Shown here piece after piece: positions 11,056 through 64,000 of a stretch of DNA of 64,000 nt. A program made the translations under genes and the position numbers. The notes under the pieces were generated by a model. That model made no database searches. It was not told the origin of the DNA and saw only the letters and a program-made list of their open reading frames with translations. The stretch is from the NCBI GenBank assembly GCA_003024175.1, contig MDYQ01000102.1, forward strand, positions 1-64,000, read 5' to 3'. This DNA is from Planoprotostelium fungivorum (taxonomy: Eukaryota; Evosea; Variosea; Cavosteliida; Cavosteliaceae). Numbering within the stretch: the first letter of the stretch is position 1; each line of letters opens with the position of its first letter.

Positions 11056-13859
11056 TCAAGATTTATTTTCTGCCGTCTTGCACAATTTGACCCACTTATC
11101 CAGCTGATCGTGGATCTCTCTCTCGATCGTCATTCGATTGTAAATCATATACAGCTTGGGCCACGTCATCCTCTCTCCATCTGCTCTTCCATCAGCCCAC
11201 ATCATCACAGTCAACACGATCGCACTCACCGATCAGCTTCTGTTGGATCTCTTTCTCGTCTGGATTCTTGACGATCTTGAGATAGTCTGATAGAACGGGC
11301 GTGGGGTACATCGTGCAAGTGCCGTGGAATTTTTGCAGAAACAGAAGACTCGAATCCTGACCGATGAAGCTGGGAACGAGGTCCATATTCCTTAGAACGT
11401 CAATACTGTCCGTTTTGTACGTGTGGATCACTCACCTTAGAAATCTCAACCATCTCATCATGTCCAACTTTAAGAACTGTTCCAACGCACTGACGACAAA
11501 TCCGCCTCTCCTGACGAACGATCAAAAAACATAGAAACGTGTCGTAGTATAAGAAAAACGTATCTTCTATTTCAAACGAGAGAGAAATAAAATGTTGACA
11601 AGAAGATGAGATGTAAAGGTGACCCACCAGCCACTCCCAGATCTGTGTTGACTCGGTTTGCCTCCGGAGCCCTTCACTTCGAAGATGAAAGGAATGATGT
11701 GTGGATTCGTCTGAGATACGATGGTGTAGTTGACGTTGAACAGTTGATGGAGGGCACGTGTGGGGATGTCTGTCTTGAAGGAGCCGTCTCTCCATCTCTT
11801 GCCGATGGCCAGGTAAGGAACGATCTCTCCAGTGTCCGTCTTCTGCAACAGTTCCGCCGCTGTCGCCCGTTCAGTTTAAACCCTAAATCCGTCGTACAAT
11901 TCGAATTTTCGGTAAAAGACGGGGGAGAATCGATCTCTCACCTGTGACGAGTATGGGAATGGCTGCAGAAGCCAAGATGGATGAATGGATGACGATATTG
12001 GGAGCCGTGCGATAGTTGAGGAGAATGGGAGGAGCGTGCTTGTCTGTAGGTATGACCGTGATGTTCAAGATCCTCCCCGTCCTCCTGTATGCCTCCAAGA
12101 AGGTCATATCGCCCCTGGTTGCCCACTTTAATTTCGACCTCCAGTTGTGATGGTCCCAGAGTGCTCCGGTCTTCCACAGGCGATTGAGGACTACGGAGAT
12201 GGGCTCGTCGTTGAGTGACATGTGAGAGGCAACTTGTAATGGATCAGTTTGGTTTTGTTATGGTGATCGTGATGATGATGGATCATGTCATCGACCATCG
12301 TCCTGATCGTGATGATGGATCCATGGAGGACATCAACCGTCGGGTCGTGATGATGACGTTGATGAGGTGGATGATTGAGGTGACGGTGGTGAAGACGATG
12401 GGAATGTCACCTGGCGGTTTCAACACTTCGTCTAATTCTTCGTCGGTTCTGCAACAGATCATGGCTGCGATGAGTGATCCTGCAGATGTCCCAGATATCA
12501 CCTTTAGATGTCATCATCTCGCGATGCTCATGATTATGATGTTGCATCACTCGACTCACCTTAGGTAACAATCCGTGTTTCTTGAGTGAAGCGACGACAC
12601 CAAAGTGATAGAAGGCAAATGTAGATCCACCAGACAGACACAGAGCAGTCCTACCGTATGACTTCGAAACGTTACGAAAGAAATCCTTCTTCACTGTGGG
12701 CTTCTCCCTGGATGATCCAACGAACCGTAAAGACTTGACGACTATGTGGTTTCAGCTTCTGTTCGTCTCTCTGTTTCGATTTTGTCGTTTGATGCGTCGA
12801 CTTCTCACCTTGTCTGACGTACTGTCTGACTAACAATTTCGTGCCGTAGTAAGTTCGAGCGTACAGTACGTCGTTCTGTATACCACCCAGATTGTTCTTG
12901 CAAGCCACCTTGTGATGATCAGCTTGATGATGTAGTGATCATCTCACGTTCAGATATTTCATGAGCATGGAAACGTCGTTGCTCTGTTGTAACTGTGCCA
13001 ATTGTTGACCCAAATTGAAGATGAGAGATTCATCGAACAATTCATCGTCAGATTGAGTCTTCCATTCCTAATGGAGTCAATCTAGATGTCTCGCCGACAC
13101 ACTACACACCTCTTTGTTTTGCAATTGGTCGAGCTCTTGGGCCACCTTCTTCCATTCGTCATAGCTGGTGGCTCTACTCTGCTGTTTGAACAGTTCTGTT
13201 CTCTTTCTCTTCTGTGGGCTGTACAGAGATACGAATAGACCGACGATGACTTTCTCCCAGAAAAGGACCCAGATGCGAATGAGGAGGTAGAACCACAACT
13301 CGCCCAATACAAACAGACCGACGCCAATTAATAGAGGATATCTATTGTCATGTCAATAGATGGTTGAATCTGTTGGAGGATGGTGGGATGTGATCAAATA
13401 CAAACTTGAGGAGGGTGTGTAGGGAGAAATGTCTGAAAAAGGAAGAACCCTTTCTTCTCGACAGCTCAGAACGAAAGAACATGTCGAATGAGCCCCCAGT
13501 ATCGATACTATTCGCTCGTGACGCTCTTTCTCCTGGCGCCGGTGAAGGTGACCGAGATCTGGAAGGTGATCGAGCTCTGTGATGATTAGTCACAAGATTG
13601 CCTCGTCTATATGCCAGATGATTCGTTACCTGAGATCATCTTCGATTTTTTGTAACTCTCTCGCTTGCTCGAGCTCATCTTTTGAAGCGCCAGATACGTG
13701 GCCTACGTCGACTTCATCGAGGACACCTGATTGGTCCATCGCTCGGTTTTTTGTGTCACCGCATGTTGCAACCGGATGAATATTTTTCCGGAGGGGAACT
13801 TCCTCTTTCTTTCGCTCGGTTTCTCCCGGCAGCTCAAGGTGGTACATGAGACCCATCAT
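11056..13859 (-). CDS. TGL4/SDP1-type patatin triacylglycerol lipase (arm 1 copy)
   Basis: Members of this family (yeast Tgl3/4/5, plant SDP1) hydrolyse triacylglycerol at lipid droplets. The N-terminal exons give a short Arg/Ser-rich segment (ARSPSRSRSPSPAPGERAS) and a membrane-associated hydrophobic stretch (IGVGLFVLGELWFYLLIRIW), then the DUF3336-like region (TSYDEWKKVAQELDQL; NDVLYARTYYGTKLLV). The patatin domain follows with glycine-rich oxyanion loop CLSGGSTFAFYHFGV, nucleophile elbow GTSAGS and catalytic Asp in RWRDGSFKTDIP, the Ser-Asp dyad of the family. The last exon ends LDKWVKLCKTAENKS. Many introns of about 40-60 nt interrupt it. The start is ATG at 13859, giving MMGLMYHLELPGETERKK; the inverted copy differs here by an in-frame 12-nt deletion. 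The gene follows the membrane patatin on the same strand, so two patatin-type lipases lie in tandem. Confidence 0.88.
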
Positions 13860-13952
13860 ACAATGAATGAACGTCAAGAAAGACAAGACAAGGCATCTTG
13901 ACTATGCATCGGGATGAAATGAGAGGAGAAGATGAACGTCTGTACAAATCTA

Positions 13953-16950
13953 TCATACTTCCATGGCTTTCCCTCTCGGCTGGTCTTCGTAGCGGACGTG
14001 ATCCTTTCCGTAATACTGCTGAAAGATGTGCTCCATAGTCTTATAACCCAATTCACTGTAACAACCGAACATCTCTTTCGAGATGAATTGATTGTTCGTC
14101 TTGTGATGAGGAAACTCGTTGCAAAAGTTTTTCGTGAAAGAGAAGGCGGGGGTGTGGCAACATTTGAAGCAGAAACCGTGCAAGTTTTCAATCTTTTCCT
14201 TTCCCATTACCTGTGATGAGTCAGTCCCACGCGATCATGATTCTACATCGATCCACCTTCTCTGCAAAGCGTCTTCGTGGCTTCAAATAGAGGATGAGAC
14301 CTTCTTTCGAATCTTCTCCTGAGTGTCGTCAGTTCATTTTCCTCCGTCGTTGTCTCACCCTTCTCTGGCTCATAGATAACTCTCACGAGCAAGAGTGGAT
14401 TGTTCTTCTCCTTGGCGAACGATCGAATGGCAGATTCTGATCTCAATCAGCTCACTCCATCTACAACGAGGCCACTCACCCACGTCACGATCGTCCGTGC
14501 TGCCGTCCGCTCTCACGGGAGCAAAAGACACACCGTCGTGTTTTCTGGCCAGATTGAGACTGATCAACAGGTCTTCACTCTTCTCTTCGTAATCTTCACT
14601 TCCATCCACCATGATGATGTACTGACGGCATTCCTGTATCCATGTCATCCATCGTGTAGCGAGGCTCCATACCTTGATAGCTGGAAAGAGGGCCAAGTTA
14701 TCGGCGAAGTTTCCATCTGACAAGTACATGCGTGGTGGCTCTGGTTTTTGACCGACGATGAATAGATCGAGGAATTGGTAGAACGTGAAGACGAGAGGAA
14801 TCCAGTACGTCCAACGTACGATCCTATCGTTCTATCAATGCTGATGATTTCATACATCTTATTCGTAGGATGTGAGATGAGAAGATGAGAAGATGAGAAG
14901 ATGAGCTCACCTGTAGCGAGGGGAGAAGGCCATACCGATGAAGATGGTGATGATGAAGATGCCGAAAGGAATGGCCAAGTAGAGCGGATCGATCTTTCGG
15001 AAGGCAACGAAGGCGGCGATGATGGGGAAGATGAGTTGGTAGACTGTGATGAGGGTGGGTCGCATGAATTGGTTGCTATGATCTGGTGACAACCAGTTTC
15101 CCATGCCTAAACCGCATTGACTCTGCCAGAATCTGGATGGATCGATCAATCGAATGTGTGTGAGATGTGAGAGATTGTTACTTCATGGGAGCGTTATTAA
15201 ATTCGCCCATTTGTATGGCAATGGCTGCACCCGACGTTGTCATGGCCGAACTCAATCGATAACTCTGAAGAGGTATCTACAAAAGTCAGATCTATCCGTC
15301 TCTTCTTCATCTATTTCTTCTTTTCCTCTTACCTCGATATCACACTCGTGGATCTTCCCCACACCACCCGAATTGATGGTCATAATGTAACTCTTATGAT
15401 CGTATGTGGCCTTGTGCTTCCATCCGTTGACAGAGACCACTCCACTGTACATCGGTATCTTACCTTCTTCCACCTGATGATGTCACACGTCCACTCTGTC
15501 TCTCGTATCGCACCTTCAATTCTCCCAATGTAGTGCTGGAGCCACAACACTTGATAAATCGTGCAAATATGCCGGTGAGACCGAAGAAACCTGAATCCTT
15601 GTACCACTGCCTCTGTAACCTCCATCGATAATAAGTGTGTAACCTGCCAAGTTGTGAACATCTCAAGTCGCCAGAAGCTTGAACTCACCAAGTTTGACTG
15701 AGTAGATTGAAGGGTACGAGCCAGATGATGGCCATGATACCTAGAACGACGTCGAACGCTCTGCTGTCCGGGTTTTCGATCCTCCACCAAGTAGGAAGGG
15801 AGCAGAAGAAAGCGAAGACGATGGCAGACAAGATGCCGAAGCTCTTCCCGGGGACGAAGGCATCTGAGAACGAGTGAGGGATGAACGGAGGATGAGATGT
15901 CACCGAAAATTCGTCCCAATACGATCCAGAGGAGAAGAGAGGCCCACGTGAGAGAATTACCCGCTCGAGCTGAAAGAAGATGAGAAGGTGATCATCATCA
16001 TGATCGAGAAGAGTTTTGTATGGATGTGTACGATGACTCACAGAAATCATCGTTGGGTATCTCCAAGATGAGAAAGACGAGTTGAAATGCAAAGATGAGA
16101 GAGATGGAAGACATGGCCGTCGCTGCATTTCTTATTCGCATCCACGAATTCGTCTTCGGTCTATTTCTCTCAGTTTCCATCACATCCATTTCTTCTCACT
16201 TTGTAAAGTTGACAAAAGTCCACAGCAATAAGGTGACGGAAAATAAACCCAGAGCAGGGTACCACCCGTAATACGCGTCCGTTCGATACATGTCGCCAAA
16301 TATGGCGGCGATTAAGACTCCGTTGAAGAAGAACAACGGCACGTGAGCAAAGACAGCCAGAACAAACGTGAGTATGACTGCGAGAGGTGAGATGACATCG
16401 TGAAAACGTAACTCACGAGCAGAGAGGAAGAGAAAGGTGTCTCTGAATCCAGTGATAGGCGAATCGCAGTCGCAGGCGACGTTTGGATGTTGTTCCATTC
16501 GTCTCTCCTGTTCTCTTCAGTTTCGGATTTTTCGCATGAGGGAAGATGAACGGTCACTTTCAACCAGGATTGTACGGCTTCTGTGAGAAAACGATCAGCG
16601 AAGACGAAATAGATGTTTCAGTTCACCTCGATAGGATAGACCGTCCTTCATGTACATGTGGAGATTCTGTACAAAGGATGATCCAGTATAGCCTCCTCCG
16701 GAGACACAATATAGTTGCTGAAGTTCCACTTCAGCTTGCGTGTGACGAGTGAGATCACCTTCAGATTGAATTCCTTCTGCATCAAGTATTCTAAAACACC
16801 CCAACTCAGGGCTGCACTTCTGACTCCACCTGTTCAGTCTTAACTTGAATCGTAACGAGGTTAGCACTCACCGCCAGATAAACACAAATAGATCTCTTTA
16901 TTTGGAAGATCTCCAAAGACTCCCTTGTCGATCTGAATATCATCAGCCAT
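13953..16950 (-). CDS. Multi-pass membrane patatin-like phospholipase (arm 1 copy)
   Basis: A patatin-fold acyl hydrolase embedded in a polytopic membrane protein, the architecture of large patatin proteins of bacteria and some protists. The ATG at 16950 begins MADDIQIDKGVFGD. Then come the oxyanion loop LCLSGGGVRSAALSWGVLEY and the nucleophile region YCVSGGGYTGSSF, separated by a 41-nt intron. Several transmembrane helices follow (ILTFVLAVFAHVPLFFF; LFSVTLLLWTFVNF; FAFQLVFLILEI; ILSAIVFAFFCSLP; VYQLIFPIIAAFVAF; LAIPFGIFIITIFIGM), then the cytosolic part with the acidic YIIMVDGSEDYEEKSED and the family-typical FPHHKTNNQFIS near the C-terminus. At least ten short introns are present; the one at 14437-14479 carries the shared intron core. 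Substrate is unknown; the membrane setting suggests phospholipid or lipoprotein acyl chains. A 5' UTR intron may precede the ATG. Confidence 0.82.
14437..14479 (-). repeat. Intron carrying the shared intron core (membrane patatin, arm 1)
   Basis: 43-nt phase-1 intron reading GTGAGTGGCCTCGTTGTAGA then TGGAGTGAG; it joins DDRDV to ESAIRSF. Arm 2 counterpart is 63203-63245. Confidence 0.75.
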
Positions 16951-17620
16951 CTATCTCGTGTAGACGATCTCACCTTTGTGATTTGTTCACTGCTATGTTT
17001 GCCTCTTCCCTCTCGATTGAGACCACTCCCTTTGTCGCTCTACGATGGTCAACGCTCATCCCCCCTCTCATCTCACCATCGCGCTCTCTGGAACACGTGC
17101 TGGTGCCTTTTGAATGGGATTCCAGTCTTTCCAGCAACCGCATCAGAAGCCACAAATTGTAACCGTGTAACAACCGAAATTTCCCAAACTCCGCAGAAGA
17201 TTTCATTTACTTCCGATAAATGAACTCAACGACACCATGTGGTCAGATAATGGTTTCATTTTCACGGCATCATCTCGAGTTGATGTTACAAAGTCTTCTT
17301 GGATCTCAGCACACAAAGAGGAGACAGTTTGTACGACTACTCTTGTCCTCGCCACCAGACAAGCAGCCAGTGGATCTATCACCGCAAATAAATGCGGTCA
17401 AGAAGAGCGACAGAAGGAGGACTCACAAAGGTAGAGCAGCTGCTCATCATCACAAGCGGCAGAAGTCAGATATATAAAAGTACGAGAATCAATCATGTCA
17501 GCACACCTTTTCTTAATCACTCACGATATCAGAAGTGGATCGCAATCATCTAGGAAATGCACTAACCATGAGACGAGAGGATGTATGTCTTTATCTATCT
17601 ACAGCATCAAATCCATCGGT
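16951..17620. other. Divergent intergenic region between membrane patatin and Nma111-like genes (arm 1)
   Basis: No gene is supported here. About 16994-17564 is one of the few parts of the inverted repeat that differs between arms: roughly 571 bp here against 899 bp in arm 2, with substitutions and indels. It is the upstream region of the membrane patatin. Nominal frames shift between arms, so they are not conserved coding. Confidence 0.6.
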
Positions 17621-20600
17621 TCACTCCGCGTGATGTTGCTGTGGAGCATGAGCGGACTCTGAGTTGTTCACCCTCAACAGTTCGCTCGCGGCGGCGTATT
17701 TCTGTCTCGTCAACTCCATCTGCTCTCTTCAGTTACAACATCTCCGACGCTCTCACCTGTTTTCGCAGTAGATCACTGGTGGGTGAATCTGAAGGTAGTC
17801 CCAACACGGGCGTATTGAACGTGCTGCGAATGGCTGTGATCCTCTCTGAGCTCCACTGTCCGCTCGATTTGTCCAGACTGATGAGAACGGTGGGCCAGTA
17901 GTGCAAGTCCGTCTTGATGGTGAGGACGGATACCTATGTCGCCATCATTCTCTCGTCGATCTGCCACGTTTTACCTTGTCTTGCATTCCCATCAGCTTCA
18001 AACGGAGGAAGGCTTCGTCTCCGGCGTTGCGCACGACCTTGATGAAGCTTTCCAGATCTGGAGTCCTCTTACCATTCACTTCCACGATCCAATGGACTGC
18101 CCTCAGTCCAAATTGGTGTGCTGTTTCTCTTCAGATGCGGTGGATGCGTTCTCTTACCTGGCGAGCCGTAGAACCATCTCGAACAGAAGACACCCTCGTA
18201 GGTGAAGCCCAACTGAGATACGGCCCTGTGTGTGTTCTGCAGGATGGCGCCAGACCAAGACAAGATCTGTGAGGCGTAAGTGAAAGAGGAAGAAACGTAG
18301 ACGCTCTCTACCTTATCGGTTCCGATACCCTCTAGGAGGGTCGTCTTCACGTCCATGACGATCTCCTGCTGGTTTCTACTCCTCGTCAATCTACAACCCG
18401 CCACAGTTCTCTCACCTCAAGAGAGTCAGACTCACAGACTCCCTCTCTCGAGTCAGATTCTCTACCTAATGACATCGATTCAGCATCTACATCCAGCCAC
18501 TCCCTCTCACCTCTCTGAAATTGGTTACAACGTCACCGTTCACAGCGATGAGAACGTCTCCTGTCTTCAACTTCGTCGACGCGTCCGTCTTAGCTGCGAT
18601 CCTCCTGATGCAGAGGATGTGTCGCCTGACGTACTTGTCTTCTATGTCTTGTATCCACTTCTCCCCCAGTCCTAGATCTCTCGCTTTCGACAGGGCGATG
18701 GGCCACAACTCGACCTCGAGCGATCGAATGCGTGGGATCTGTATGACGTCATCACACGTCATCAGTCACGTGACCTCCACCTCGTCTCTCTTCAGTGGTT
18801 CGATGATCTCCTGGATGAGATAGAGGGGGAGGCCTCTGAATATCTCGAACGACTCGGACGGGTTCTTCTTCTCGGAGGAAGAGTAAGAGGCCCACAAGGC
18901 GCGGATCTTTCTATTCTCGTCCACTAGAACACCTCCCACGCAGGACGTCGCCTTCTCTAAATGGATGACATCCTCGTTGATCGCACGGAATCTATCGACA
19001 TCAGTTGATGGCGTGGACCTCGCGATAGATGTCACACCTGGGTGGTCTGGCTTCGCCGATAAAGAGCTCTTCTATCTTTGATACGGTCGTCTTCTGGCAG
19101 AACGGCTGATCGGTGCGAGTTAAACCGACGAGAAAGACGTCGGCGCCAGCTTCTAAAGGCTCCATCGAGATGTTGGCTGATTGAAACCCAGAATTGACGA
19201 GGAGCTTAGGGTCGTACTGCAATATGCCGAAATTGTGGATGGGGTGGATGTAACGAATTCTCGCTGGAATTTCCTGTGGAGGTCACGTGACTGATAGTGC
19301 AGGTTATGACTCACGACAGTGGATGCGAAAGAGACGAGGAGGTCACCCAGAACAAGCGGCACAGTGTTCTGATCGACGAGAATCAATCCTCTCTCGGCGT
19401 CTAATATGAGACCGGAGCCGAGATAGTTGTCGCTGAGCTTGTCAATCTACAACTACAGCCACTCTCTTCACCTGCTGCCACCATCGATGACGTAGGGAAT
19501 GTGGAAGGACACCATTACCATAGACTTGACGATCTCGTTCGCGAGCTCCATCGGGCTCTTCAATGTCTTAACGGGTGTTGGTTTTGGAACAAAGGCCGGC
19601 TCAGGAGCGGGAAGACAGTCTGACGCCGTCCAAAGTCCCAGAGCGTCGTCCTTCGTCCACATCTGCAAAGGTTGAGTCCCAAATGGATTTTTATTTCGTT
19701 TTATTCTTCTCACCTGCATGCCGTGCCAACAGCGATCGATGTAGATGACGCTGAGACGCGACTGATGTCTGTCTGAAACGGTGAAGTACTGTATGGGCAC
19801 TCTTGAATCATTGCTGTACGAGCAGATGGCCTGCCTACGTCAGTGGTCACGTGACCTACACCGTCTCTACCTTTGCGAACGACTCCAAGTTTGGAGTCTC
19901 CGTCTGGCCTACGGCACGAATGATTGTGCCCTTGTGGAGCCCTCCTCTTCCAAGCATGTAGCCATCGGATGCCACATAGACTCCACCAACGGGGAGTCTG
20001 TGATTGCGCGCCTGCTGATAAGACAACTCGTGCAGCACACCACCACCAACCTATCGAACGTTCGACATTTCGTCATCTACAACGAGCCACGACTTACCTC
20101 GAGAAAAGTGCTGGGCTCCAATTGATGTAGATCGACAATGGGCAATTTGTGGGTCATGGGAACACCTCCCCTCTCGATCTGCTGGTGTCAGATGGTTCCG
20201 TAGAACGATGACGTCATCACCTCTATGGTTACGGTCTGTCCGACGTGTGAGTCCATGATGTCCTCCAGCCGGATAAATTGCGTCAGCAGTTCACCCTGCA
20301 GGCTGAAACTTCTCAGAAATTTCTCAGAAATCTCGATGAGATCACCTGACGATGACGTCTCCCGGCTCTAAGACGTTGTACGATGGGCTCTCTGGGATGA
20401 CTGAATCTACAACGAGCATTCCCGTCTCGTTCGCATTTTCTTTTCTGAAAGTCGATTCCGTCACGCCGCGAAGTCCCAATCGGTGTACCTATCCCAAATG
20501 AGACCCATGCGGCCTGATCACGTGGCTCACCTCGTCGTAGGGTGTGTGGCGGAATACGGTTTGAAGGTCACCCCTGGGTGGCTTCAAATTGTCGTTCTGC

Positions 20601-21665
20601 AGGTATTGCAGAACCCTCTTGACTCGATGTAGAGGGAGGTAGAAGGAAGAGGCAGCCTTTCTTCTGCCGCCGGCGTTCAGTGCGATGGCCTTTCCGGTTA
20701 GATTGAGCACGGGACTACCTGGGAAGAATTGAGAGAGGAATAGGAGAAGATGAGAACTTGATGAGATGAGAACATTAGAACATGAGACGGGAAATTGAGG
20801 TGGATGAGAAGATAGAAGAGATGGATGAGATGGATGTGTAGATATACCCGAAGAGCCACCACTCGTAGATGATGCAGCTTGGTAGTAGAATGTGTTGAAG
20901 TCGTTGTACTCGTCATCTCCGTAGAAGGGAGCGGGTCGATCCATTCTGGCGATGGTGCCAGACAAGATGCTGAGTTTTTCTCCGGCGTCATTTCTGGGAA
21001 TGAAGCATCAGACATCGATATGGACAATGGATGACATGAAAATGAATGACTGATGAAAGGAGAAGAGAGGCTGAGATGTATGAATGAAATGGCATACCCG
21101 ACGACACGAATTTCTATGCCAACTTTTGCGCCTTCGGGATCGAGTTCGATCTCTTTGAGGTCCATGAACTTGACGTCAGCTGTTCAGAATGAGTGGAGAT
21201 ACAAGATGGAAGGAGTATGCGTCGGACCATCGTCTGACGTCACACATGATAATGAACACACCTGGATTGAACCTGAAGAATCCAAAGTCATGTATAGGGT
21301 CTCTGTACACGGGATACAATTTAATCTCTTCGTGGTCTAAGAAAATGGCCTCGGCCGTCACTGGTCCCGGTCGAACAACGTGACGATTGGTCAGAATGAG
21401 ACCTTTGGCTTTGTCTACTATGAAACCAGTGGCTACAGAGAAGGAGGCACGCTCTGTATCAAAATGTCTGACTGTACAGAAGCGAATGGCAACCACTGCT
21501 GAGACAACTCTGTCCAGAGTTCTCTGCCACGTTTCACTCTCTACGTTGAGACCCATGGGTGGTGCCTGTTCGAGTTAAGAGATTATGTTTCACGTGTTAC
21601 AACATTACCTCGTCTAGCTGAATGCTACTTATGCTCGGTGAATTTGGATAGTCTTGATAATCCAT
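17621..21665 (-). CDS. Nma111-type HtrA/DegP serine protease with PDZ domains (arm 1 copy)
   Basis: Nma111 (Ynm3) is a nuclear HtrA-like protease with pro-apoptotic and lipid-related roles in yeast; relatives occur in fungi, plants and protists. The product starts [19 protein letters not shown], then the protease domain: [20 protein letters not shown] with catalytic His, [11 protein letters not shown] with catalytic Asp, and [20 protein letters not shown] with catalytic Ser. PDZ segments follow ([27 protein letters not shown]), then the degenerate second protease-like half ([18 protein letters not shown]) with further PDZ segments ([35 protein letters not shown]) and a C-terminal tail ending HAPQQHHAE. 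The length of over 900 residues fits the duplicated HtrA-PDZ architecture. More than fifteen introns of about 39-90 nt are seen, and four carry the shared intron core. The catalytic triad looks intact. Confidence 0.9.
18376..18415 (-). repeat. Intron carrying the shared intron core (Nma111-like, arm 1)
   Basis: 40-nt intron in phase 2, read as GTGAGAGAACTGTGG then GGGTTGTAGATTGACGAG and ending GAGTAG. Removing it joins SVSLTLL to RNQQEIVMD. Its counterpart in arm 2 is 58939-58978. Confidence 0.75.
18466..18510 (-). repeat. Intron carrying the shared intron core (Nma111-like, arm 1)
   Basis: 45-nt intron containing GAGTGGCTGGATGTAGATG; it joins VVTNFRE to VENLTRE. Arm 2 counterpart is 58844-58888. 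Confidence 0.7.
19433..19471 (-). repeat. Intron carrying the shared intron core (Nma111-like, arm 1)
   Basis: 39-nt intron reading GTGAAGAGAGTGGCTGTA then GTTGTAGATTGACAAG; it joins VIDGGS to SDNYLGSG. Arm 2 counterpart is 57883-57921. Confidence 0.75.
20051..20097 (-). repeat. Intron carrying the shared intron core (Nma111-like, arm 1)
   Basis: 47-nt intron containing GTGGCTCGTTGTAGATGACG; it joins LEPSTFLE to VGGGVLHEL. Arm 2 counterpart is 57257-57303. Confidence 0.75.
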
Positions 21666-22318
21666 CTTGATAACGCCACTGAGGGTGCTGAAGATGGTTT
21701 TGTGATTTTGCGCTCTCTCACAGAAAAATGTTCTGCAGGTCCGTTTTGACTGCCTGTCACAAACAAAGCACAGTACGTCGAGTATTTATTTATTAATGAA
21801 TACAAGACAGAGAAGCAAAACAAGATCACGTTAGAGTTATTTAGCGCTATACTATATAGTATAAACTAGAGGTCGGTGTGTGCACGATCTCTCATCCTCT
21901 CATGAATGCGTGCGTTTGTAGATAGATCCATGACGTCACCCCTAGCCACACTCTTGCCTCTATCTATGTCTCCTCTTAACGAACATCTCCTCTATCACCA
22001 TATAAAATTAAAGGAAGGCAGAAGGGAGACAATCGATGAGGTGCATAGAAAGATGTCCGATGGACAGATGAAAGAAAGAGAGAGGCAAATGGATAGAAGG
22101 GATCAAGTCGAAAAGATCAAGTCGAATAGATCACGATATCTGATGTCTATGGCAGTGCACCCGATGGTGGCTTGCTTGATGATCTCAAATGAACACATGT
22201 GAGGCTTCTCAGCCTCAGCCACGTCTCTCAAGCAAAGAACAATAAACAATAGACAACACGATCCATGATTCACATCATCGTCACATCTCGCCAAAAACAA
22301 TGATTTATATCATCCACT
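21666..22318. promoter_or_regulatory. Intergenic and putative promoter region upstream of the Nma111-like gene (arm 1)
   Basis: This separates the 3' end of UAP1 from the start of the Nma111-like gene. It holds a perfect 14-bp palindrome, ATACTATATAGTAT, near 21851-21864 (AT-rich, TATA-like, about 190 bp before the start). A 98-codon plus-strand frame at 21906-22202 is open but resembles nothing. No other feature is seen. Confidence 0.45.
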
Positions 22319-24390: not shown

Positions 24391-24471
24391 TCAGATCCAT
24401 TTTCACAGCACGAACAGTTCTCCTGAACACATCAGCAGTCCACCGACGCGTCAGACACAGCTGACGTCGTC
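24391..24471. promoter_or_regulatory. Short divergent promoter UAP1 / LIM-coiled-coil (arm 1)
   Basis: 81 bp separate the two divergent start codons. It includes TGACGCG and CTGACGTCGTC, the latter containing a CRE-like TGACGTC core. The mirror copy is 52777-52857 and looks identical. Confidence 0.4.
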
Positions 24472-26976: not shown

Positions 26977-27101
26977 TGTGTCCATCTCCACTCGGTCTCC
27001 TGTGTACATTATCAATGGAATCGGCCGAGTCATCTCCATCATGGTAGAGAAGAGAGAAGGATAAATCAATCGATGTTCTGAATCGATACAAGACGACGAC
27101 A

Positions 27102-27989: not shown

Positions 27990-28029
27990 TTAAAGAGGTA
28001 GACATCTAAGTTTGAGTTCAATGTCACCT

Positions 28030-29000: not shown

Positions 29001-29011
29001 GCTTTGTCACT

Positions 29012-46098: not shown

Positions 46099-46119
46099 GG
46101 CTCTCGCATATCAATCGCG

Positions 46120-47350: not shown

Positions 47351-47608
47351 TTATCTCCAACCCTTCTTCTCTGCTAATCGTCTGGTTCAGCGATTCAGTT
47401 TCTCCTCAGCCTTCTCCACCTACCTGTCAGGATCCTCTTGAAGGAATTGAATGATGTATTTGAGACAGTCAAAATCGAGAGTGCAACCTGAATGCAGGGG
47501 TTGCGAGGTGAAGGAGTAGCGAACTCGCTTAGAACTCGTGTTACGTCAATCGGCGATGTTCCTGACGTCAGCCGATCACAAACAAAGAACATCAAAGAAC
47601 TCAACCCG

Positions 47609-49240: not shown

Positions 49241-49258
49241 AGGTGTCTACCTCTTTAA

Positions 49259-50146: not shown

Positions 50147-50271
50147 TGTCGTCGTCTTGTATCGATTCAGAACATCGATTGATTTATCCTTCTCTCTTCT
50201 CTACCATGATGGAGATGACTCGGCCGATTCCATTGATAATGTACACAGGAGACCGAGTGGAGATGGACACA

Positions 50272-52776: not shown

Positions 52777-52857
52777 GACGACGTCAGCTGTGTCTGACGC
52801 GTCGGTGGACTGCTGATGTGTTCAGGAGAACTGTTCGTGCTGTGAAAATGGATCTGA

Positions 52858-55035
52858 ATGATGCGATTCCGCCCCGCGATCTCTCAACGCTTTGGACCAT
52901 TTTTAAAACAAGAGATGGCAGGAGCTGACTCAGTCGACCTCAAGAAACGATTAGAAGATGCAGGTCAAGGACACCTGTTGCAGTTCGAAGCGGAACTGTC
53001 TGCGGAAGAGAGGACCGCACTTCGACAAGATATAGAGGTCGGTCGTGCATAATGCGTGGAAGGTGGCTGACAGGAATTACAGTCCATTGATTTGGAGTAT
53101 GTTCAATTCATACACAAGAGAACCGCAGGTGAAATGATTCACGATTAAATCGCACGACTCTGAACGCGGCGACAGAGCAAGCGCGTCGTGTTCTGAGACA
53201 ATCTACGACTATGAGTCGCCTCCCTCCCAATCATTACAATCAGATCAAAGGTACGGCCGAAGATAGAAAGCGATGGTATCAACTTGGACTGGAGAAGATC
53301 AGTCAAGGAAAAGTTGCCACTCTTCTCCTCGCCGGCGGACAGGTATCCATCACCTCGGATTCATTCTCCGATGTGCCCGGTGTCTGATGAGCATCCAGGG
53401 AACAAGATTAGGAACGAAAGACCCAAAGGGGATGTATAACGTCGGTCTGCTCTCTGGTAAATCTCTCTTCCAACTCCAAGCGGAAAGGATCGTCAGACTA
53501 CAGAACATCATAGAGAAGATGACTGGAAGTGAGTCACCTATTCATACCACGAGACCTTCTTACATCCTCGCAGAGAAGATCCAGATTCCGTGGTACATCA
53601 TGACAAGTGAAGCGACGAAAGGAAGCACCCACCAATTTTTCGCCAAGCATGATTGGTTCGGTCTGAACCAGAACGATGTCATCATCTTCGAACAGACCAT
53701 GTTGCCCTGCCTCCTCCCGGATGGTAAAATCATCTTAGAATCAAAACACAAGGTGAACATCACTTCCCACACGATGATGTCACGAGTGGAGAGAACTTTA
53801 AAATAGATTAAAACGTTCAGATCGCTCGTGCTCCCAACGGTAACGGAGGTGTATTCGAAGGTGAGCCAGCGACTCATCATCCATCAGCGACTTACGTCTA
53901 AACAGCTCTCGGCAAGGAAGGCATTCTAGAGGACATGAAGAAGAGGGGAATCGAGTTGGTGTACCAGTACTGTGTGGACAACATATTGGTCAAGATGGTC
54001 GATCCCGTCTTTGCAGGTTACTGCTTTGACAAGAACATCGACTGTGCTGCCAAGTACGTCACCAAACTCCACGCGAAAGAGCCAGGTCAGTCGATCAGCA
54101 TCACGATCAGCATCACCATCATCATCACCATCATCATCACCATCATCATCACCATCATCATCACCATCATCATCACCATCATCATCACCATCATCATCAC
54201 CATCATCATCACCATCATCATCACCATCATCATCACCATCATCGTTCCATCACCATCATCTTCTCCGACGTCAACGACTTGTCTCCATCATGATGTCCAT
54301 CATCTGATGGCGATGAACAGTCGGTGTCTTGTGCCTCAAAAATGGACGCCCCGGAGTCTTAGAATACAGCGAATTAGACGAGTCCACTGCAACTCGTATG
54401 AATGATGATGGCTCTCTCTACTACAACGAGAGTCACATCTGCATGAACGCCTTCTCAGGTACTTTCAACTTTAAAATGAATTAAATCACCTGACCCCTTT
54501 CAGTCGAATTTCTAAACTCCCTCGTGTTGGGCGAGAAGATCGAAGACCTGCGTAACTTGCCGTGAGTTTTCACGTACGTTCTGGGTTTTAAGGTTTAATT
54601 CTCCGTCAGCTTTCACATCGCGAAAAAGTCTATCCCATCTGTAGATGTAGAAGGCCAGGCGGCAAACGTGAACGGCTGGAAGCTAGAGCTCTTTATCTTT
54701 GACGTGTTCGAGCATGCCAAGAGGTTTTACGTCTACGAAGTGGAGAGGATGGAGGAGTTTTCACCTCTAAAGAACGGAGCCGGCAGCTCTTCAGATAACC
54801 CGACCAGCTGTAAGGCTCACCTCAGCAACTTGCACAAGGCCATGGTCGTTCATGCGGGTGGCGATTTCGACCGAGGTGGGAGATGATGCGGACGATGAAG
54901 ATGATGACGGTGTCTTTAGAATCTGGGGAATTACTGGAGGTGTCGCCGTTGGTTGCTGTCGGATTGGAAGACTTGGAAGATCTGAAGGGACGAGTGCAGG
55001 GAAAGAAGGAATCGTTACCTCTTTACATACAATGA
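52858..55035 (+). CDS. UAP1: UDP-N-acetylglucosamine pyrophosphorylase (arm 2 copy)
   Basis: Same protein as the arm 1 copy as far as read. The distinguishing feature is the intron at 54086-54320, 235 nt here against 129 nt in arm 1, which contains a 9-bp microsatellite. In the exon just upstream five codons differ, all silently (for example CAC-GCG-AAA-GAG against CAT-GCA-AAA-GAA, both HAKE), so selection has acted on both versions. Both copies keep the catalytic loop, uridine site and C-terminus, giving two intact genes for one step of UDP-GlcNAc synthesis if both loci are real. Confidence 0.92.
54111..54243 (+). repeat. 9-bp microsatellite in a UAP1 intron
   Basis: About fifteen tandem copies of CATCATCAC. 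Arm 1 has only a few irregular relatives of this unit at 23111-23157. The block is inside the intron, so the protein is unaffected. Confidence 0.9.
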
Positions 55036-55688
55036 AGTGGATGATATAAATCATTGTTTTTGGCGAGATGTGACGATGATGTGAATCATGGATCGTGTTG
55101 TCTATTGTTTATTGTTCTTTGCTTGAGAGACGTGGCTGAGGCTGAGAAGCCTCACATGTGTTCATTTGAGATCATCAAGCAAGCCACCATCGGGTGCACT
55201 GCCATAGACATCAGATATCGTGATCTATTCGACTTGATCTTTTCGACTTGATCCCTTCTATCCATTTGCCTCTCTCTTTCTTTCATCTGTCCATCGGACA
55301 TCTTTCTATGCACCTCATCGATTGTCTCCCTTCTGCCTTCCTTTAATTTTATATGGTGATAGAGGAGATGTTCGTTAAGAGGAGACATAGATAGAGGCAA
55401 GAGTGTGGCTAGGGGTGACGTCATGGATCTATCTACAAACGCACGCATTCATGAGAGGATGAGAGATCGTGCACACACCGACCTCTAGTTTATACTATAT
55501 AGTATAGCGCTAAATAACTCTAACGTGATCTTGTTTTGCTTCTCTGTCTTGTATTCATTAATAAATAAATACTCGACGTACTGTGCTTTGTTTGTGACAG
55601 GCAGTCAAAACGGACCTGCAGAACATTTTTCTGTGAGAGAGCGCAAAATCACAAAACCATCTTCAGCACCCTCAGTGGCGTTATCAAG
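55036..55688. promoter_or_regulatory. Intergenic and putative promoter region upstream of the Nma111-like gene (arm 2)
   Basis: Mirror of 21666-22318, with the ATACTATATAGTAT palindrome near 55490-55503. No gene is supported. Confidence 0.45.
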
Positions 55689-58600
55689 ATGGATTATCAA
55701 GACTATCCAAATTCACCGAGCATAAGTAGCATTCAGCTAGACGAGGTAATGTTGTAACACGTGAAACATAATCTCTTAACTCGAACAGGCACCACCCATG
55801 GGTCTCAACGTAGAGAGTGAAACGTGGCAGAGAACTCTGGACAGAGTTGTCTCAGCAGTGGTTGCCATTCGCTTCTGTACAGTCAGACATTTTGATACAG
55901 AGCGTGCCTCCTTCTCTGTAGCCACTGGTTTCATAGTAGACAAAGCCAAAGGTCTCATTCTGACCAATCGTCACGTTGTTCGACCGGGACCAGTGACGGC
56001 CGAGGCCATTTTCTTAGACCACGAAGAGATTAAATTGTATCCCGTGTACAGAGACCCTATACATGACTTTGGATTCTTCAGGTTCAATCCAGGTGTGTTC
56101 ATTATCATGTGTGACGTCAGACGATGGTCCGACGCATACTCCTTCCATCTTGTATCTCCACTCATTCTGAACAGCTGACGTCAAGTTCATGGACCTCAAA
56201 GAGATCGAACTCGATCCCGAAGGCGCAAAAGTTGGCATAGAAATTCGTGTCGTCGGGTATGCCATTTCATTCATACATCTCAGCCTCTCTTCTCCTTTCA
56301 TCAGTCATTCATTTTCATGTCATCCATTGTCCATATCGATGTCTGATGCTTCATTCCCAGAAATGACGCCGGAGAAAAACTCAGCATCTTGTCTGGCACC
56401 ATCGCCAGAATGGATCGACCCGCTCCCTTCTACGGAGATGACGAGTACAACGACTTCAACACATTCTACTACCAAGCTGCATCATCTACGAGTGGTGGCT
56501 CTTCGGGTATATCTACACATCCATCTCATCCATCTCTTCTATCTTCTCATCCACCTCAATTTCCCGTCTCATGTTCTAATGTTCTCATCTCATCAAGTTC
56601 TCATCTTCTCCTATTCCTCTCTCAATTCTTCCCAGGTAGTCCCGTGCTCAATCTAACCGGAAAGGCCATCGCACTGAACGCCGGCGGCAGAAGAAAGGCT
56701 GCCTCTTCCTTCTACCTCCCTCTACATCGAGTCAAGAGGGTTCTGCAATACCTGCAGAACGACAATTTGAAGCCACCCAGGGGTGACCTTCAAACCGTAT
56801 TCCGCCACACACCCTACGACGAGGTGAGCCACGTGATCAGGCCGCATGGGTCTCATTTGGGATAGGTACACCGATTGGGACTTCGCGGCGTGACGGAATC
56901 GACTTTCAGAAAAGAAAATGCGAACGAGACGGGAATGCTCGTTGTAGATTCAGTCATCCCAGAGAGCCCATCGTACAACGTCTTAGAGCCGGGAGACGTC
57001 ATCGTCAGGTGATCTCATCGAGATTTCTGAGAAATTTCTGAGAAGTTTCAGCCTGCAGGGTGAACTGCTGACGCAATTTATCCGGCTGGAGGACATCATG
57101 GACTCACACGTCGGACAGACCGTAACCATAGAGGTGATGACGTCATCGTTCTACGGAACCATCTGACACCAGCAGATCGAGAGGGGAGGTGTTCCCATGA
57201 CCCACAAATTGCCCATTGTCGATCTACATCAATTGGAGCCCAGCACTTTTCTCGAGGTAAGTCGTGGCTCGTTGTAGATGACGAAATGTCGAACGTTCGA
57301 TAGGTTGGTGGTGGTGTGCTGCACGAGTTGTCTTATCAGCAGGCGCGCAATCACAGACTCCCCGTTGGTGGAGTCTATGTGGCATCCGATGGCTACATGC
57401 TTGGAAGAGGAGGGCTCCACAAGGGCACAATCATTCGTGCCGTAGGCCAGACGGAGACTCCAAACTTGGAGTCGTTCGCAAAGGTAGAGACGGTGTAGGT
57501 CACGTGACCACTGACGTAGGCAGGCCATCTGCTCGTACAGCAATGATTCAAGAGTGCCCATACAGTACTTCACCGTTTCAGACAGACATCAGTCGCGTCT
57601 CAGCGTCATCTACATCGATCGCTGTTGGCACGGCATGCAGGTGAGAAGAATAAAACGAAATAAAAATCCATTTGGGACTCAACCTTTGCAGATGTGGACG
57701 AAGGACGACGCTCTGGGACTTTGGACGGCGTCAGACTGTCTTCCCGCTCCTGAGCCGGCCTTTGTTCCAAAACCAACACCCGTTAAGACATTGAAGAGCC
57801 CGATGGAGCTCGCGAACGAGATCGTCAAGTCTATGGTAATGGTGTCCTTCCACATTCCCTACGTCATCGATGGTGGCAGCAGGTGAAGAGAGTGGCTGTA
57901 GTTGTAGATTGACAAGCTCAGCGACAACTATCTCGGCTCCGGTCTCATATTAGACGCCGAGAGAGGATTGATTCTCGTCGATCAGAACACTGTGCCGCTT
58001 GTTCTGGGTGACCTCCTCGTCTCTTTCGCATCCACTGTCGTGAGTCATAACCTGCACTATCAGTCACGTGACCTCCACAGGAAATTCCAGCGAGAATTCG
58101 TTACATCCACCCCATCCACAATTTCGGCATATTGCAGTACGACCCTAAGCTCCTCGTCAATTCTGGGTTTCAATCAGCCAACATCTCGATGGAGCCTTTA
58201 GAAGCTGGCGCCGACGTCTTTCTCGTCGGTTTAACTCGCACCGATCAGCCGTTCTGCCAGAAGACGACCGTATCAAAGATAGAAGAGCTCTTTATCGGCG
58301 AAGCCAGACCACCCAGGTGTGACATCTATCGCGAGGTCCACGCCATCAACTGATGTCGATAGATTCCGTGCGATCAACGAGGATGTCATCCATTTAGAGA
58401 AGGCGACGTCCTGCGTGGGAGGTGTTCTAGTGGACGAGAATAGAAAGATCCGCGCCTTGTGGGCCTCTTACTCTTCCTCCGAGAAGAAGAACCCGTCCGA
58501 GTCGTTCGAGATATTCAGAGGCCTCCCCCTCTATCTCATCCAGGAGATCATCGAACCACTGAAGAGAGACGAGGTGGAGGTCACGTGACTGATGACGTGT

Positions 58601-59733
58601 GATGACGTCATACAGATCCCACGCATTCGATCGCTCGAGGTCGAGTTGTGGCCCATCGCCCTGTCGAAAGCGAGAGATCTAGGACTGGGGGAGAAGTGGA
58701 TACAAGACATAGAAGACAAGTACGTCAGGCGACACATCCTCTGCATCAGGAGGATCGCAGCTAAGACGGACGCGTCGACGAAGTTGAAGACAGGAGACGT
58801 TCTCATCGCTGTGAACGGTGACGTTGTAACCAATTTCAGAGAGGTGAGAGGGAGTGGCTGGATGTAGATGCTGAATCGATGTCATTAGGTAGAGAATCTG
58901 ACTCGAGAGAGGGAGTCTGTGAGTCTGACTCTCTTGAGGTGAGAGAACTGTGGCGGGTTGTAGATTGACGAGGAGTAGAAACCAGCAGGAGATCGTCATG
59001 GACGTGAAGACGACCCTCCTAGAGGGTATCGGAACCGATAAGGTAGAGAGCGTCTACGTTTCTTCCTCTTTCACTTACGCCTCACAGATCTTGTCTTGGT
59101 CTGGCGCCATCCTGCAGAACACACACAGGGCCGTATCTCAGTTGGGCTTCACCTACGAGGGTGTCTTCTGTTCGAGATGGTTCTACGGCTCGCCAGGTAA
59201 GAGAACGCATCCACCGCATCTGAAGAGAAACAGCACACCAATTTGGACTGAGGGCAGTCCATTGGATCGTGGAAGTGAATGGTAAGAGGACTCCAGATCT
59301 GGAAAGCTTCATCAAGGTCGTGCGCAACGCCGGAGACGAAGCCTTCCTCCGTTTGAAGCTGATGGGAATGCAAGACAAGGTAAAACGTGGCAGATCGACG
59401 AGAGAATGATGGCGACATAGGTATCCGTCCTCACCATCAAGACGGACTTGCACTACTGGCCCACCGTTCTCATCAGTCTGGACAAATCGAGCGGACAGTG
59501 GAGCTCAGAGAGGATCACAGCCATTCGCAGCACGTTCAATACGCCCGTGTTGGGACTACCTTCAGATTCACCCACCAGTGATCTACTGCGAAAACAGGTG
59601 AGAGCGTCGGAGATGTTGTAACTGAAGAGAGCAGATGGAGTTGACGAGACAGAAATACGCCGCCGCGAGCGAACTGTTGAGGGTGAACAACTCAGAGTCC
59701 GCTCATGCTCCACAGCAACATCACGCGGAGTGA
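55689..59733 (+). CDS. Nma111-type HtrA/DegP serine protease with PDZ domains (arm 2 copy)
   Basis: Mirror of 17621-21665; no coding difference was seen. The catalytic His, Asp and Ser segments ([23 protein letters not shown]) are intact, so both copies should encode active protease. Introns at 57257-57303, 57883-57921, 58844-58888 and 58939-58978 carry the shared core. Its 3' end lies 57 bp from the next divergent patch. Confidence 0.9.
57257..57303 (+). repeat. Intron carrying the shared intron core (Nma111-like, arm 2)
   Basis: Mirror of 20051-20097; contains GTGGCTCGTTGTAGATGACG. Confidence 0.75.
57883..57921 (+). repeat. Intron carrying the shared intron core (Nma111-like, arm 2)
   Basis: Mirror of 19433-19471; 39 nt. 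Confidence 0.75.
58844..58888 (+). repeat. Intron carrying the shared intron core (Nma111-like, arm 2)
   Basis: Mirror of 18466-18510; 45 nt. Confidence 0.7.
58939..58978 (+). repeat. Intron carrying the shared intron core (Nma111-like, arm 2)
   Basis: Mirror of 18376-18415; 40 nt. Confidence 0.75.
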
Positions 59734-60731
59734 ACCGATGGATTTGATGCTGTAGATAGATAAAGACATACATCCTCTCGTCTCATGGTTTGGCTCAGAG
59801 GGTTGGTGCATTTCCTAAATGACTGCGATCCACTTCTGGTAGCTGAATGATATCGTGAATGACTAAGAAACAGTGCATTTATTTGCGGTGATAGATCCAC
59901 TCAAGAGCAGCCTTACAATCTCAGTATAACCATTGAAGGCGAGAGTAGTCGACTTACAATCTCACTGCGACCCAACAACAGGAAGCGTCAAGATTCAACA
60001 TTGCCTCCTTCCACTGCCAAAAGCAGATGATTGGTCAGCCAACCAGAGAAGCTGTCCACTGGGAACATCAGAAGAGTTGATTTGCTACTGAGAGTCTCAC
60101 CGATGTCTTTCCACAACTAGTATGTGAAGCAAAGAACGGCAAACTGTCACCTCTTTGTGTCCTGAGATCCGTTTCTTGTATCCATTGCCCCCTCTGAAGA
60201 TCACTTTTGTAACATCGGCTCGAGATGATGCTGTGAAAATGAAACCAGTATCTGACCACATGATGCCGTTGGGTTGAACCGTTTCAGAGCAGAGATGCAG
60301 CTAATGATGAATGGAATCATCTACAGTCGCGACATCACGAAGGTCTTGAGATCAAGATCGAAGAAAGTAGTGAGGCACCTATAGACGAAATACGCTGAAG
60401 CTGTTACCCGCACATCCTCCCTTCGGACAGGACCTTCAGTGCACTGTCCACCTTGAGGCCGTAATTTATCGGAAGTAGATGAAATCTTCTGCGGAGTTTG
60501 GGAAATTTCGGTTGTTACACGGTTACAATCTGTGGCTTCTGATGCGGTTGCTGGAAAGACTGGAATCCCATTCAAGGCACAAGCACGTGTTCCAGAAAGC
60601 GCGATGGTGAGATGAGAGGGGGACGAGCGTTGACTATCGTAGAGCGACAAAGGGAGTGGTCTCAATCGAGAGGGAAGATGCAAACACAGCAGTGAACAAA
60701 TCACAAAGGTGAGATCGTCTACACGAGACAG
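59734..60731. other. Divergent intergenic region upstream of the membrane patatin (arm 2)
   Basis: About 899 bp (59790-60688) aligned only in blocks with the 571 bp of arm 1. Shared blocks include TTTGCGGTGATAGATCCACT and GACCACATG. There is extra sequence in arm 2, for example the repeated CTTACAATCTCA at about 59914 and 59955. No gene is supported. Confidence 0.6.
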
Positions 60732-63729
60732 ATGGCTGATGATATTCAGATCGACAAGGGAGTCTTTGGAGATCTTCCAAATAAAGAGATCTATTTGTGT
60801 TTATCTGGCGGTGAGTGCTAACCTCGTTACGATTCAAGTTAAGACTGAACAGGTGGAGTCAGAAGTGCAGCCCTGAGTTGGGGTGTTTTAGAATACTTGA
60901 TGCAGAAGGAATTCAATCTGAAGGTGATCTCACTCGTCACACGCAAGCTGAAGTGGAACTTCAGCAACTATATTGTGTCTCCGGAGGAGGCTATACTGGA
61001 TCATCCTTTGTACAGAATCTCCACATGTACATGAAGGACGGTCTATCCTATCGAGGTGAACTGAAACATCTATTTCGTCTTCGCTGATCGTTTTCTCACA
61101 GAAGCCGTACAATCCTGGTTGAAAGTGACCGTTCATCTTCCCTCATGCGAAAAATCCGAAACTGAAGAGAACAGGAGAGACGAATGGAACAACATCCAAA
61201 CGTCGCCTGCGACTGCGATTCGCCTATCACTGGATTCAGAGACACCTTTCTCTTCCTCTCTGCTCGTGAGTTACGTTTTCACGATGTCATCTCACCTCTC
61301 GCAGTCATACTCACGTTTGTTCTGGCTGTCTTTGCTCACGTGCCGTTGTTCTTCTTCAACGGAGTCTTAATCGCCGCCATATTTGGCGACATGTATCGAA
61401 CGGACGCGTATTACGGGTGGTACCCTGCTCTGGGTTTATTTTCCGTCACCTTATTGCTGTGGACTTTTGTCAACTTTACAAAGTGAGAAGAAATGGATGT
61501 GATGGAAACTGAGAGAAATAGACCGAAGACGAATTCGTGGATGCGAATAAGAAATGCAGCGACGGCCATGTCTTCCATCTCTCTCATCTTTGCATTTCAA
61601 CTCGTCTTTCTCATCTTGGAGATACCCAACGATGATTTCTGTGAGTCATCGTACACATCCATACAAAACTCTTCTCGATCATGATGATGATCACCTTCTC
61701 ATCTTCTTTCAGCTCGAGCGGGTAATTCTCTCACGTGGGCCTCTCTTCTCCTCTGGATCGTATTGGGACGAATTTTCGGTGACATCTCATCCTCCGTTCA
61801 TCCCTCACTCGTTCTCAGATGCCTTCGTCCCCGGGAAGAGCTTCGGCATCTTGTCTGCCATCGTCTTCGCTTTCTTCTGCTCCCTTCCTACTTGGTGGAG
61901 GATCGAAAACCCGGACAGCAGAGCGTTCGACGTCGTTCTAGGTATCATGGCCATCATCTGGCTCGTACCCTTCAATCTACTCAGTCAAACTTGGTGAGTT
62001 CAAGCTTCTGGCGACTTGAGATGTTCACAACTTGGCAGGTTACACACTTATTATCGATGGAGGTTACAGAGGCAGTGGTACAAGGATTCAGGTTTCTTCG
62101 GTCTCACCGGCATATTTGCACGATTTATCAAGTGTTGTGGCTCCAGCACTACATTGGGAGAATTGAAGGTGCGATACGAGAGACAGAGTGGACGTGTGAC
62201 ATCATCAGGTGGAAGAAGGTAAGATACCGATGTACAGTGGAGTGGTCTCTGTCAACGGATGGAAGCACAAGGCCACATACGATCATAAGAGTTACATTAT
62301 GACCATCAATTCGGGTGGTGTGGGGAAGATCCACGAGTGTGATATCGAGGTAAGAGGAAAAGAAGAAATAGATGAAGAAGAGACGGATAGATCTGACTTT
62401 TGTAGATACCTCTTCAGAGTTATCGATTGAGTTCGGCCATGACAACGTCGGGTGCAGCCATTGCCATACAAATGGGCGAATTTAATAACGCTCCCATGAA
62501 GTAACAATCTCTCACATCTCACACACATTCGATTGATCGATCCATCCAGATTCTGGCAGAGTCAATGCGGTTTAGGCATGGGAAACTGGTTGTCACCAGA
62601 TCATAGCAACCAATTCATGCGACCCACCCTCATCACAGTCTACCAACTCATCTTCCCCATCATCGCCGCCTTCGTTGCCTTCCGAAAGATCGATCCGCTC
62701 TACTTGGCCATTCCTTTCGGCATCTTCATCATCACCATCTTCATCGGTATGGCCTTCTCCCCTCGCTACAGGTGAGCTCATCTTCTCATCTTCTCATCTT
62801 CTCATCTCACATCCTACGAATAAGATGTATGAAATCATCAGCATTGATAGAACGATAGGATCGTACGTTGGACGTACTGGATTCCTCTCGTCTTCACGTT
62901 CTACCAATTCCTCGATCTATTCATCGTCGGTCAAAAACCAGAGCCACCACGCATGTACTTGTCAGATGGAAACTTCGCCGATAACTTGGCCCTCTTTCCA
63001 GCTATCAAGGTATGGAGCCTCGCTACACGATGGATGACATGGATACAGGAATGCCGTCAGTACATCATCATGGTGGATGGAAGTGAAGATTACGAAGAGA
63101 AGAGTGAAGACCTGTTGATCAGTCTCAATCTGGCCAGAAAACACGACGGTGTGTCTTTTGCTCCCGTGAGAGCGGACGGCAGCACGGACGATCGTGACGT
63201 GGGTGAGTGGCCTCGTTGTAGATGGAGTGAGCTGATTGAGATCAGAATCTGCCATTCGATCGTTCGCCAAGGAGAAGAACAATCCACTCTTGCTCGTGAG
63301 AGTTATCTATGAGCCAGAGAAGGGTGAGACAACGACGGAGGAAAATGAACTGACGACACTCAGGAGAAGATTCGAAAGAAGGTCTCATCCTCTATTTGAA
63401 GCCACGAAGACGCTTTGCAGAGAAGGTGGATCGATGTAGAATCATGATCGCGTGGGACTGACTCATCACAGGTAATGGGAAAGGAAAAGATTGAAAACTT
63501 GCACGGTTTCTGCTTCAAATGTTGCCACACCCCCGCCTTCTCTTTCACGAAAAACTTTTGCAACGAGTTTCCTCATCACAAGACGAACAATCAATTCATC
63601 TCGAAAGAGATGTTCGGTTGTTACAGTGAATTGGGTTATAAGACTATGGAGCACATCTTTCAGCAGTATTACGGAAAGGATCACGTCCGCTACGAAGACC
63701 AGCCGAGAGGGAAAGCCATGGAAGTATGA
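60732..63729 (+). CDS. Multi-pass membrane patatin-like phospholipase (arm 2 copy)
   Basis: Mirror of 13953-16950 with the same exons and catalytic segments. The coding part and the 41-nt intron between oxyanion loop and nucleophile are unchanged, whereas the upstream region is rearranged (59790-60688). The two copies may thus be expressed differently. The intron at 63203-63245 carries the shared core. Confidence 0.82.
63203..63245 (+). repeat. Intron carrying the shared intron core (membrane patatin, arm 2)
   Basis: Mirror of 14437-14479. Confidence 0.75.
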
Positions 63730-63832
63730 TAGATTTGTACAGAACCGTTCAGCTTCTCCCTCATTCATCCCGATGCATAGTCAACATTGGATTGGATGCC
63801 TTGTGTTGTCCTTCTTGACGTTCATTCATCGT

Positions 63833-64000
63833 ATGATGGGTCTCATGCACCGGGAAGAATCAGAGCGAAAGAAAGAGGAAGTTCCCCTCCGGAAAAATAT
63901 TCATCCGGTTGCAACATGCAGTGACACAAAAAACCGAGCGATGGACCAATCAGGTGTCCTCGATGAAGTCGACGTAGGCCACGTATCTGGCGCTTCAAAA
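63833..64000 (+). CDS. TGL4/SDP1-type lipase, 5' exon only, cut by the right edge (arm 2 copy)
   Basis: Starts MMGLMHREESERKKEEVPLR and continues NIHPVATCSDTKNRAMDQSG to the end of the window. Compared with arm 1 (MMGLMYHLELPGETERKKEE) the N-terminus is four residues shorter with several substitutions, and Gly/Ser differs in ATCGDTK/ATCSDTK; from MDQSGVLDEVDVGH on the two agree. The in-frame indel supports genuine allelic or paralogous divergence of coding sequence rather than sequencing error. Confidence 0.8.
   Translation, partial: MMGLMHREESERKKEEVPLRKNIHPVATCSDTKNRAMDQSGVLDEVDVGHVSGASK

Follow-up and report, generated by a model that had tools for sequence, protein, structure and literature searches.

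An inverted gene block with a version-switching join in its spacer on a Planoprotostelium fungivorum contig: probable assembly product

The inverted repeat and its genes

The window, that is, the whole stretch of 64,000 nucleotides analysed here, comprises the first 64,000 bases of the 97,365-bp contig C37 of the Planoprotostelium fungivorum assembly (36.86 Mb in 471 contigs). It carries a block of genes followed by a long spacer and an inverted copy of the same block. The left arm holds a TGL4-like patatin gene, hydrophobic ORFs without a Pfam match, an Nma111-like protease, UAP1, a LIM-like ORF, a charged ORF and an ORF of unknown nature. The features referred to below are as follows.

1-9,085, plus strand: left outer flank, with a second copy on C99:47,619-56,734
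10,679-28,241, plus strand: left arm (self-BLAST, difference list, ORFs, Pfam)
12,189-12,974, minus strand: divergent island within the TGL4-like gene (difference list, codon comparison)
28,242-48,985, no strand: spacer, 20,744 bp (searches of other contigs)
29,510-29,905, plus strand: piece near the left arm, found inverted on C48:1-396
39,041, no strand: site of a repeat insertion in the second spacer copy; C37 has the empty site
42,046, no strand: single N, an assembly join in the spacer between abutting 243-bp copies
48,986-64,000 in the window, to 66,817 on C37, minus strand: right arm, inverted copy (self-BLAST)

The arms were delimited by a BLASTN self-comparison of all 97,365 bp of the contig, which placed them at 10,679-28,241 and 48,986-66,817, with lengths of 17,563 and 17,832 bp, respectively; the right arm thus extends 2.8 kb beyond the end of the window. 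The alignment consists of four inverted blocks, 10,679-10,830/66,666-66,817 (96.7% identity), 11,014-17,221/60,464-66,671 (97.0%), 17,509-23,156/54,200-59,870 (99.3%) and 23,053-28,241/48,986-54,192 (98.6%), the three long ones each with E=0. Judged by these alignments, chance is ruled out as the origin of the repeat, and the inverted gene block announced in a preliminary description of this DNA is indeed present on C37. The same description gave arms of at least 14.5 kb starting at 13,680; the repeat itself stands, but the arms are larger, and 13,680 is merely the mirror point of the window end. Neither arm contains an N. The DNA differs at all four arm ends, and no homology was found between the inner or the outer neighbours of the two arms on C37.

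Gene content was read by comparing typed translations of exon composites with Pfam. The composites matched Patatin and DUF3336 (TGL4-like), Trypsin_2 (Nma111-like) and UDPGP (UAP1), consistent with three of the genes named previously; the LIM match, at 21.9 bits, lies just below the cut-off of 22.9 bits. TGL4-like and Nma111-like are putative names taken from the earlier description. A separate membrane patatin had also been listed; a composite of the ORF pieces at 14.4-16.5 kb gave no Pfam match, and the sole patatin domain seen is that of the TGL4-like gene, at about 11.6-12.7 kb, which may itself be the gene that was meant. The closest relative of UAP1 among the matches listed is a EukProt transcript with 52% identity, with Balamuthia further down (40%) among mixed eukaryotes. 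Rfam, at gathering thresholds, and ARAGORN gave no match anywhere in the window. In the spacer, the ORF at 44,652-45,521 matches both a linker histone and a WWE domain in Pfam, and we know of no other pairing of the two.

Islands and identical runs

Differences between the arms are clustered rather than scattered. Difference-free runs of 5,479, 4,786, 3,014 and 1,134 bp were found, in agreement with the long unchanged stretches noticed before, and the main islands lie at about 12.2-13.0, 13.8-13.9, 16.95-17.56, 23.04-23.22 and 28.0-28.24 kb, in addition to the outer end below 11.06 kb. Runs of at least 300 bp without a difference cover 80% of the arm block 11,031-17,220 and 96% of the block 17,509-28,241, with substitutions of 6.8% and 8.5% outside the runs and 1.37% and 0.37% overall, respectively, figures that omit 10,679-11,030 and 17,221-17,508 with their insertions and strong divergence. 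A further side observation is an insertion of about 183 bases present only in the left arm (10,831-11,013, against contig position 66,665), the ends of which share about 6 bases, like the target-site duplication of a small mobile element.

Codon comparison of the ORF stretch 12,545-12,751 in the patatin gene revealed that 4 of the 5 changed codons are synonymous. Six other translated stretches, some of them partly intronic or gapped, gave synonymous/other codon counts of 1/8, 3/5, 0/0, 1/1, 2/5 and 0/0. These counts therefore give no general support for selection on the islands.

A similar pattern was found outside the arms. Seven other blocks present in two copies differ by 0, 0.75, 1.39, 1.48, 1.95, 2.26 and 7.80% substitutions. 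Difference-free runs of at least 300 bp cover 79% of a block shared with contig C222 (longest run 4,334 bp, 7.1% substitutions outside the runs) and 55-79% of four blocks shared with contig C48 (longest run 2,733 bp, 3.4-5.0% outside), whereas uniform scatter of an equal number of changes gives much shorter runs. The C222 block 28,999-30,178 is atypical, with 7.8% difference and no long run. In the copy of the left flank on C99, 1,141 bp were compared letter by letter and showed zero differences. The mosaic of islands and runs is thus shared by most of the second-copy pairs checked letter by letter and is not peculiar to the arms. Gene conversion between alleles, loss of heterozygosity or a single assembler consensus used for both copies may have produced it. 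The identical runs were not accepted as evidence that the arms convert each other, since C37 also shares long runs with C222, C48 and the short C99 stretch.

The join in the spacer and the second copies

The single N at 42,046 lies between the copies 41,803-42,045 and 42,047-42,289, which differ at 8 positions in 243 bp with zero gaps. C48, whose bases 1 to 8,400 contain no N, runs through the same sequence uninterrupted; of the 8 sites, 7 match the left copy and the remaining one matches the right copy. The two sides of the N are therefore different versions, and, as C48 passes the spot without an N, the spacer DNA is continuous across the join while contig C37 switches version there. Thus the path linking the two arms on C37 includes a version switch. 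The exceptional site is 41,875, where the left copy has A and both the right copy and C48 have T: either the 243-bp overlap comes in three versions or one of the letters is an error. Joins of this type recur in the assembly. The other single Ns on C37 (89,772, 95,448 and 96,421) all have near-duplicate sides, one pair abutting, making 4 of 4 for the contig with 2 abutting; in 200 kb taken from the starts of 20 contigs, six single Ns on four contigs all have near-duplicate sides (6/6), four of them exactly abutting.

For most of the spacer and most of the left flank, at least one further copy was found among the matches listed. The left part of the spacer recurs on C222, within 28,999-39,041, where 30,179-31,914 and 38,217-38,658 are unmatched. 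The right part recurs on C48, within 39,041-48,750; C48 is collinear with C37 over this range, with 45,529-47,511 missing and unrelated DNA in place of 40,269-40,676, so that neither interval is matched there. At 39,041 the second copy is interrupted by a repeat, one end of which lies on C222 and the other on C48, both matching C60:3404-4245. C48 continues for 80 kb beyond part of this C60-type repeat and, given that continuation, may itself be misjoined there. The left flank matches C99 with 94% identity over 1-1,406, 84% over 1,597-2,020 and 99% over 2,090-9,085, and on C99 the stretch 1,597-9,085 is inverted relative to 1-1,406. For the DNA beside the spacer end on C222 (C222:8,244-9,500), no second copy was found; two short relatives of 68-71% identity lie on C48 (8,777-9,013 and 14,091-14,257), perhaps a small gene family around the locus.

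For the arms, a charged repeat at 25.6-26.0 kb swamped the whole-arm query and shorter pieces were used instead. The three queries covered 10,680-16,950, 17,564-23,042 and 26,100-28,241, and the high-identity matches of each are confined to its two positions on C37. The searches listed no near-identical further copy for 28,242-28,998, 30,179-31,914 or 9,086-10,678. Eight open-frame control probes, seven 420 bases long and one 147 bases long, each from a different other contig, all lacked a second copy; their searches gave only two other matches, at 67% identity and, over 66 bases, at 86%. The idea that the assembly is split into haplotypes throughout is therefore unsupported; a local real duplication would look alike.

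The order of the pieces differs between the contigs. On C37, the stretch 28.24-30.2 kb comes directly after the left arm, with the remaining spacer behind it. The copy on C222 lies on the same side as in C37, with 94% identity over 29,510-29,905 and 92% over 28,999-30,178. On C48, however, 29,510-29,905 is found past the right spacer end and is inverted, with 7 differences in 396 bp (98.2%), separated from 48,750 by 156 unmatched bases; C48 ends within this piece and reaches no arm. Such a position, inverted and at the opposite end of the spacer, would follow from two versions of one locus that differ in the orientation of the spacer relative to arm and neighbour.

Compared with the left half of the spacer, C48 differs at 39.1-41.06 kb and agrees over 41.07-42.05 kb except at one site; compared with the right half, it differs in islands at 42.2, 45.0-45.5 and 47.5-48.7 kb. 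Phase is not traceable through the identical runs. The pattern would be equally compatible with a C37 that represents one version apart from a switched tail of about 1 kb at most. By our own count, a chimeric C37 with C48 as its mirror and a C37 with a short switched tail take equal numbers of switches. Copy number favours the former, because the short-tail scheme leaves the other version without an arm.

Origin of the palindrome

Based on these comparisons, we propose that the palindrome on C37 is an assembly product, in which two versions of one locus were joined through a switch within an inversion; we put the probability of this reading at about 0.6. The two versions, which would be alleles if the organism is diploid, would differ by the inversion of a spacer of about 20 kb relative to the arm, together with nearby rearrangements. 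C37 would begin in one version with flank, arm and spacer and, at the N join, continue in the other version, in which the arm would lie on the opposite side of the spacer. As the spacer is nearly alike in both versions, the assembly or its scaffolding could have crossed over there, and the outcome would be arm, spacer and inverted arm, although each version would have one arm. The repeat, the join, the version change, the second copies and the position of the 29.5-29.9 kb piece at the other spacer end on C48 are observed; the allelic nature of the versions, the existence of the inversion and the presence of a single arm in each version are what we infer. This reading is favoured because the N join coincides with a version change, because extra copies of most of the spacer and flank lie on other contigs, whereas the tested arm stretches have only the two on C37, and because the mosaic of the arms resembles that of most of the other pairs. 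The inverted 29.5-29.9 kb piece on C48 and the recurrence of single-N joins with near-duplicate sides favour it too. Several results speak against it, namely the eight single-copy control probes, the stretches 28,242-28,998, 30,179-31,914 and 9,086-10,678 without a listed second copy, the lack of a second copy of C222:8,244-9,500, the atypical C222 block 28,999-30,178, the loss of phase in the identical runs and the continuity of the spacer across the N; the one site in eight at the join that departs from a two-version pattern counts against it as well. The preliminary description had left the choice between a real palindrome and a head-to-head misjoin of haplotypes. The join, the extra copies and the mosaic lean towards a misjoin, but not towards a plain head-to-head join of collinear haplotypes, which we rejected as the arm flanks share no homology.

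The main alternative is a real inverted segmental duplication whose arms are kept alike by arm-to-arm conversion, the other contigs then holding a second, rearranged copy of spacer and flank, from either the other haplotype or another locus. We regard it as unlikely, though it accounts for a good deal: neither arm holds an N and all four arm ends are different, the eight single-copy control probes would make the duplication local, C48 backs the continuity of the spacer across the N, and the long identical tracts with sharp islands resemble conversion. However, the similar mosaic between non-arm copies needs no palindrome, and the path from arm to arm crosses a join with a version change. In addition, no third copy was found for the tested arm stretches; a duplication confined to one haplotype would thus require that its counterpart has no arm, and hence neither UAP1 nor the protease, or that this counterpart is hidden. 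The fuller picture of a true palindrome, with 17.6-kb gene-bearing arms in a largely single-copy genome, undergoing patchwise conversion, at a locus that also exists in a second, inverted and repeat-bearing arrangement, is likewise doubtful. A chimera formed before assembly, such as the inverted chimeras of whole-genome amplification, would suit the several inversion-type junctions at the 7-20 kb scale (C99, C48 and C37), and palindromic (inverted chimeric) reads have been reported from amplification (PMC13265396), but we consider it very improbable, as the arms differ in islands and a copied strand would show none.

The palindromes of Y chromosomes have large inverted arms, near-identical over long tracts, with genes in both arms and conversion between them (summarised in PMC7953838). 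In the assembly sequence, C37 resembles them in its large gene-bearing inverted arms and long near-identical tracts, whereas its spacer is longer than its arms and a similar mosaic also occurs between non-arm copies. Botryllus schlosseri palindromes were accepted as real from depth, duplicated marker genes and an error check (PMC12448946). The 2013 assembly of Adineta vaga contained 23 palindromes and A. ricciae none, and errors of scaffolding may account for part of the collinearity breaks seen at scaffold gaps (Nowell et al. 2018, PMC5916493); another A. vaga assembly had a single palindrome (PMC7749112). Artificial palindromes can arise from erroneous scaffolding, and lists of palindromes include false ones due to misassembly (Jaron et al. 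2020, PMC7953838). C37 is similar to the 2013 A. vaga assembly in having homologous blocks inverted on one scaffold, and differs in being a single case, in an assembly of about 37 Mb, and in that the version change at the join is visible letter by letter. False heterotype duplications, in which both alleles are placed as paralogs, show a gap between copies on one scaffold and arise where haplotypes diverge more than elsewhere (PMC9516828). The first of these marks is present on C37 as the single N at 42,046. In contrast to the cases in that paper, the copies on C37 are inverted and enclose a 20.7-kb spacer with a second copy of its own; the word 'inverted' is absent from the paper's main text. 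This arrangement on C37 points to the two versions differing by an inversion. A limited literature search found no paper on false palindromes produced by a switch within a heterozygous inversion.

A version switch in an inverted segment could thus produce a giant gene-bearing palindrome in an assembly. We suggest a test that needs no reads, in which abutting near-duplicate joins are sought in the spacer and the other contigs are searched for its second copy. Should the misjoin be true, counts of UAP1, the Nma111-like protease and the TGL4-like patatin taken from C37 would be wrongly doubled; a real palindrome, on the other hand, would offer a useful case of arm-to-arm conversion outside the Y chromosome.

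The right outer flank (66,818-97,365) has a lower G+C content, 0.36-0.46 in 3-kb steps, with many internal repeats and three single-N joins. A dispersed short repeat occurs in the window at 38,814-39,002 and 2,101-2,227 and on the contig at 66,833-67,039, 74,468-74,664 and 79,381-79,557, with copies on many contigs, and one of its copies directly adjoins the right arm on the outer side. Another repeat, of about 400 bases, is found at C250:1-430, and part of it stands at base 1 of at least nine other contigs (C192, C91, C149, C297, C293, C118, C386, C216 and C305), so that the assembly seems often to have broken at this element.
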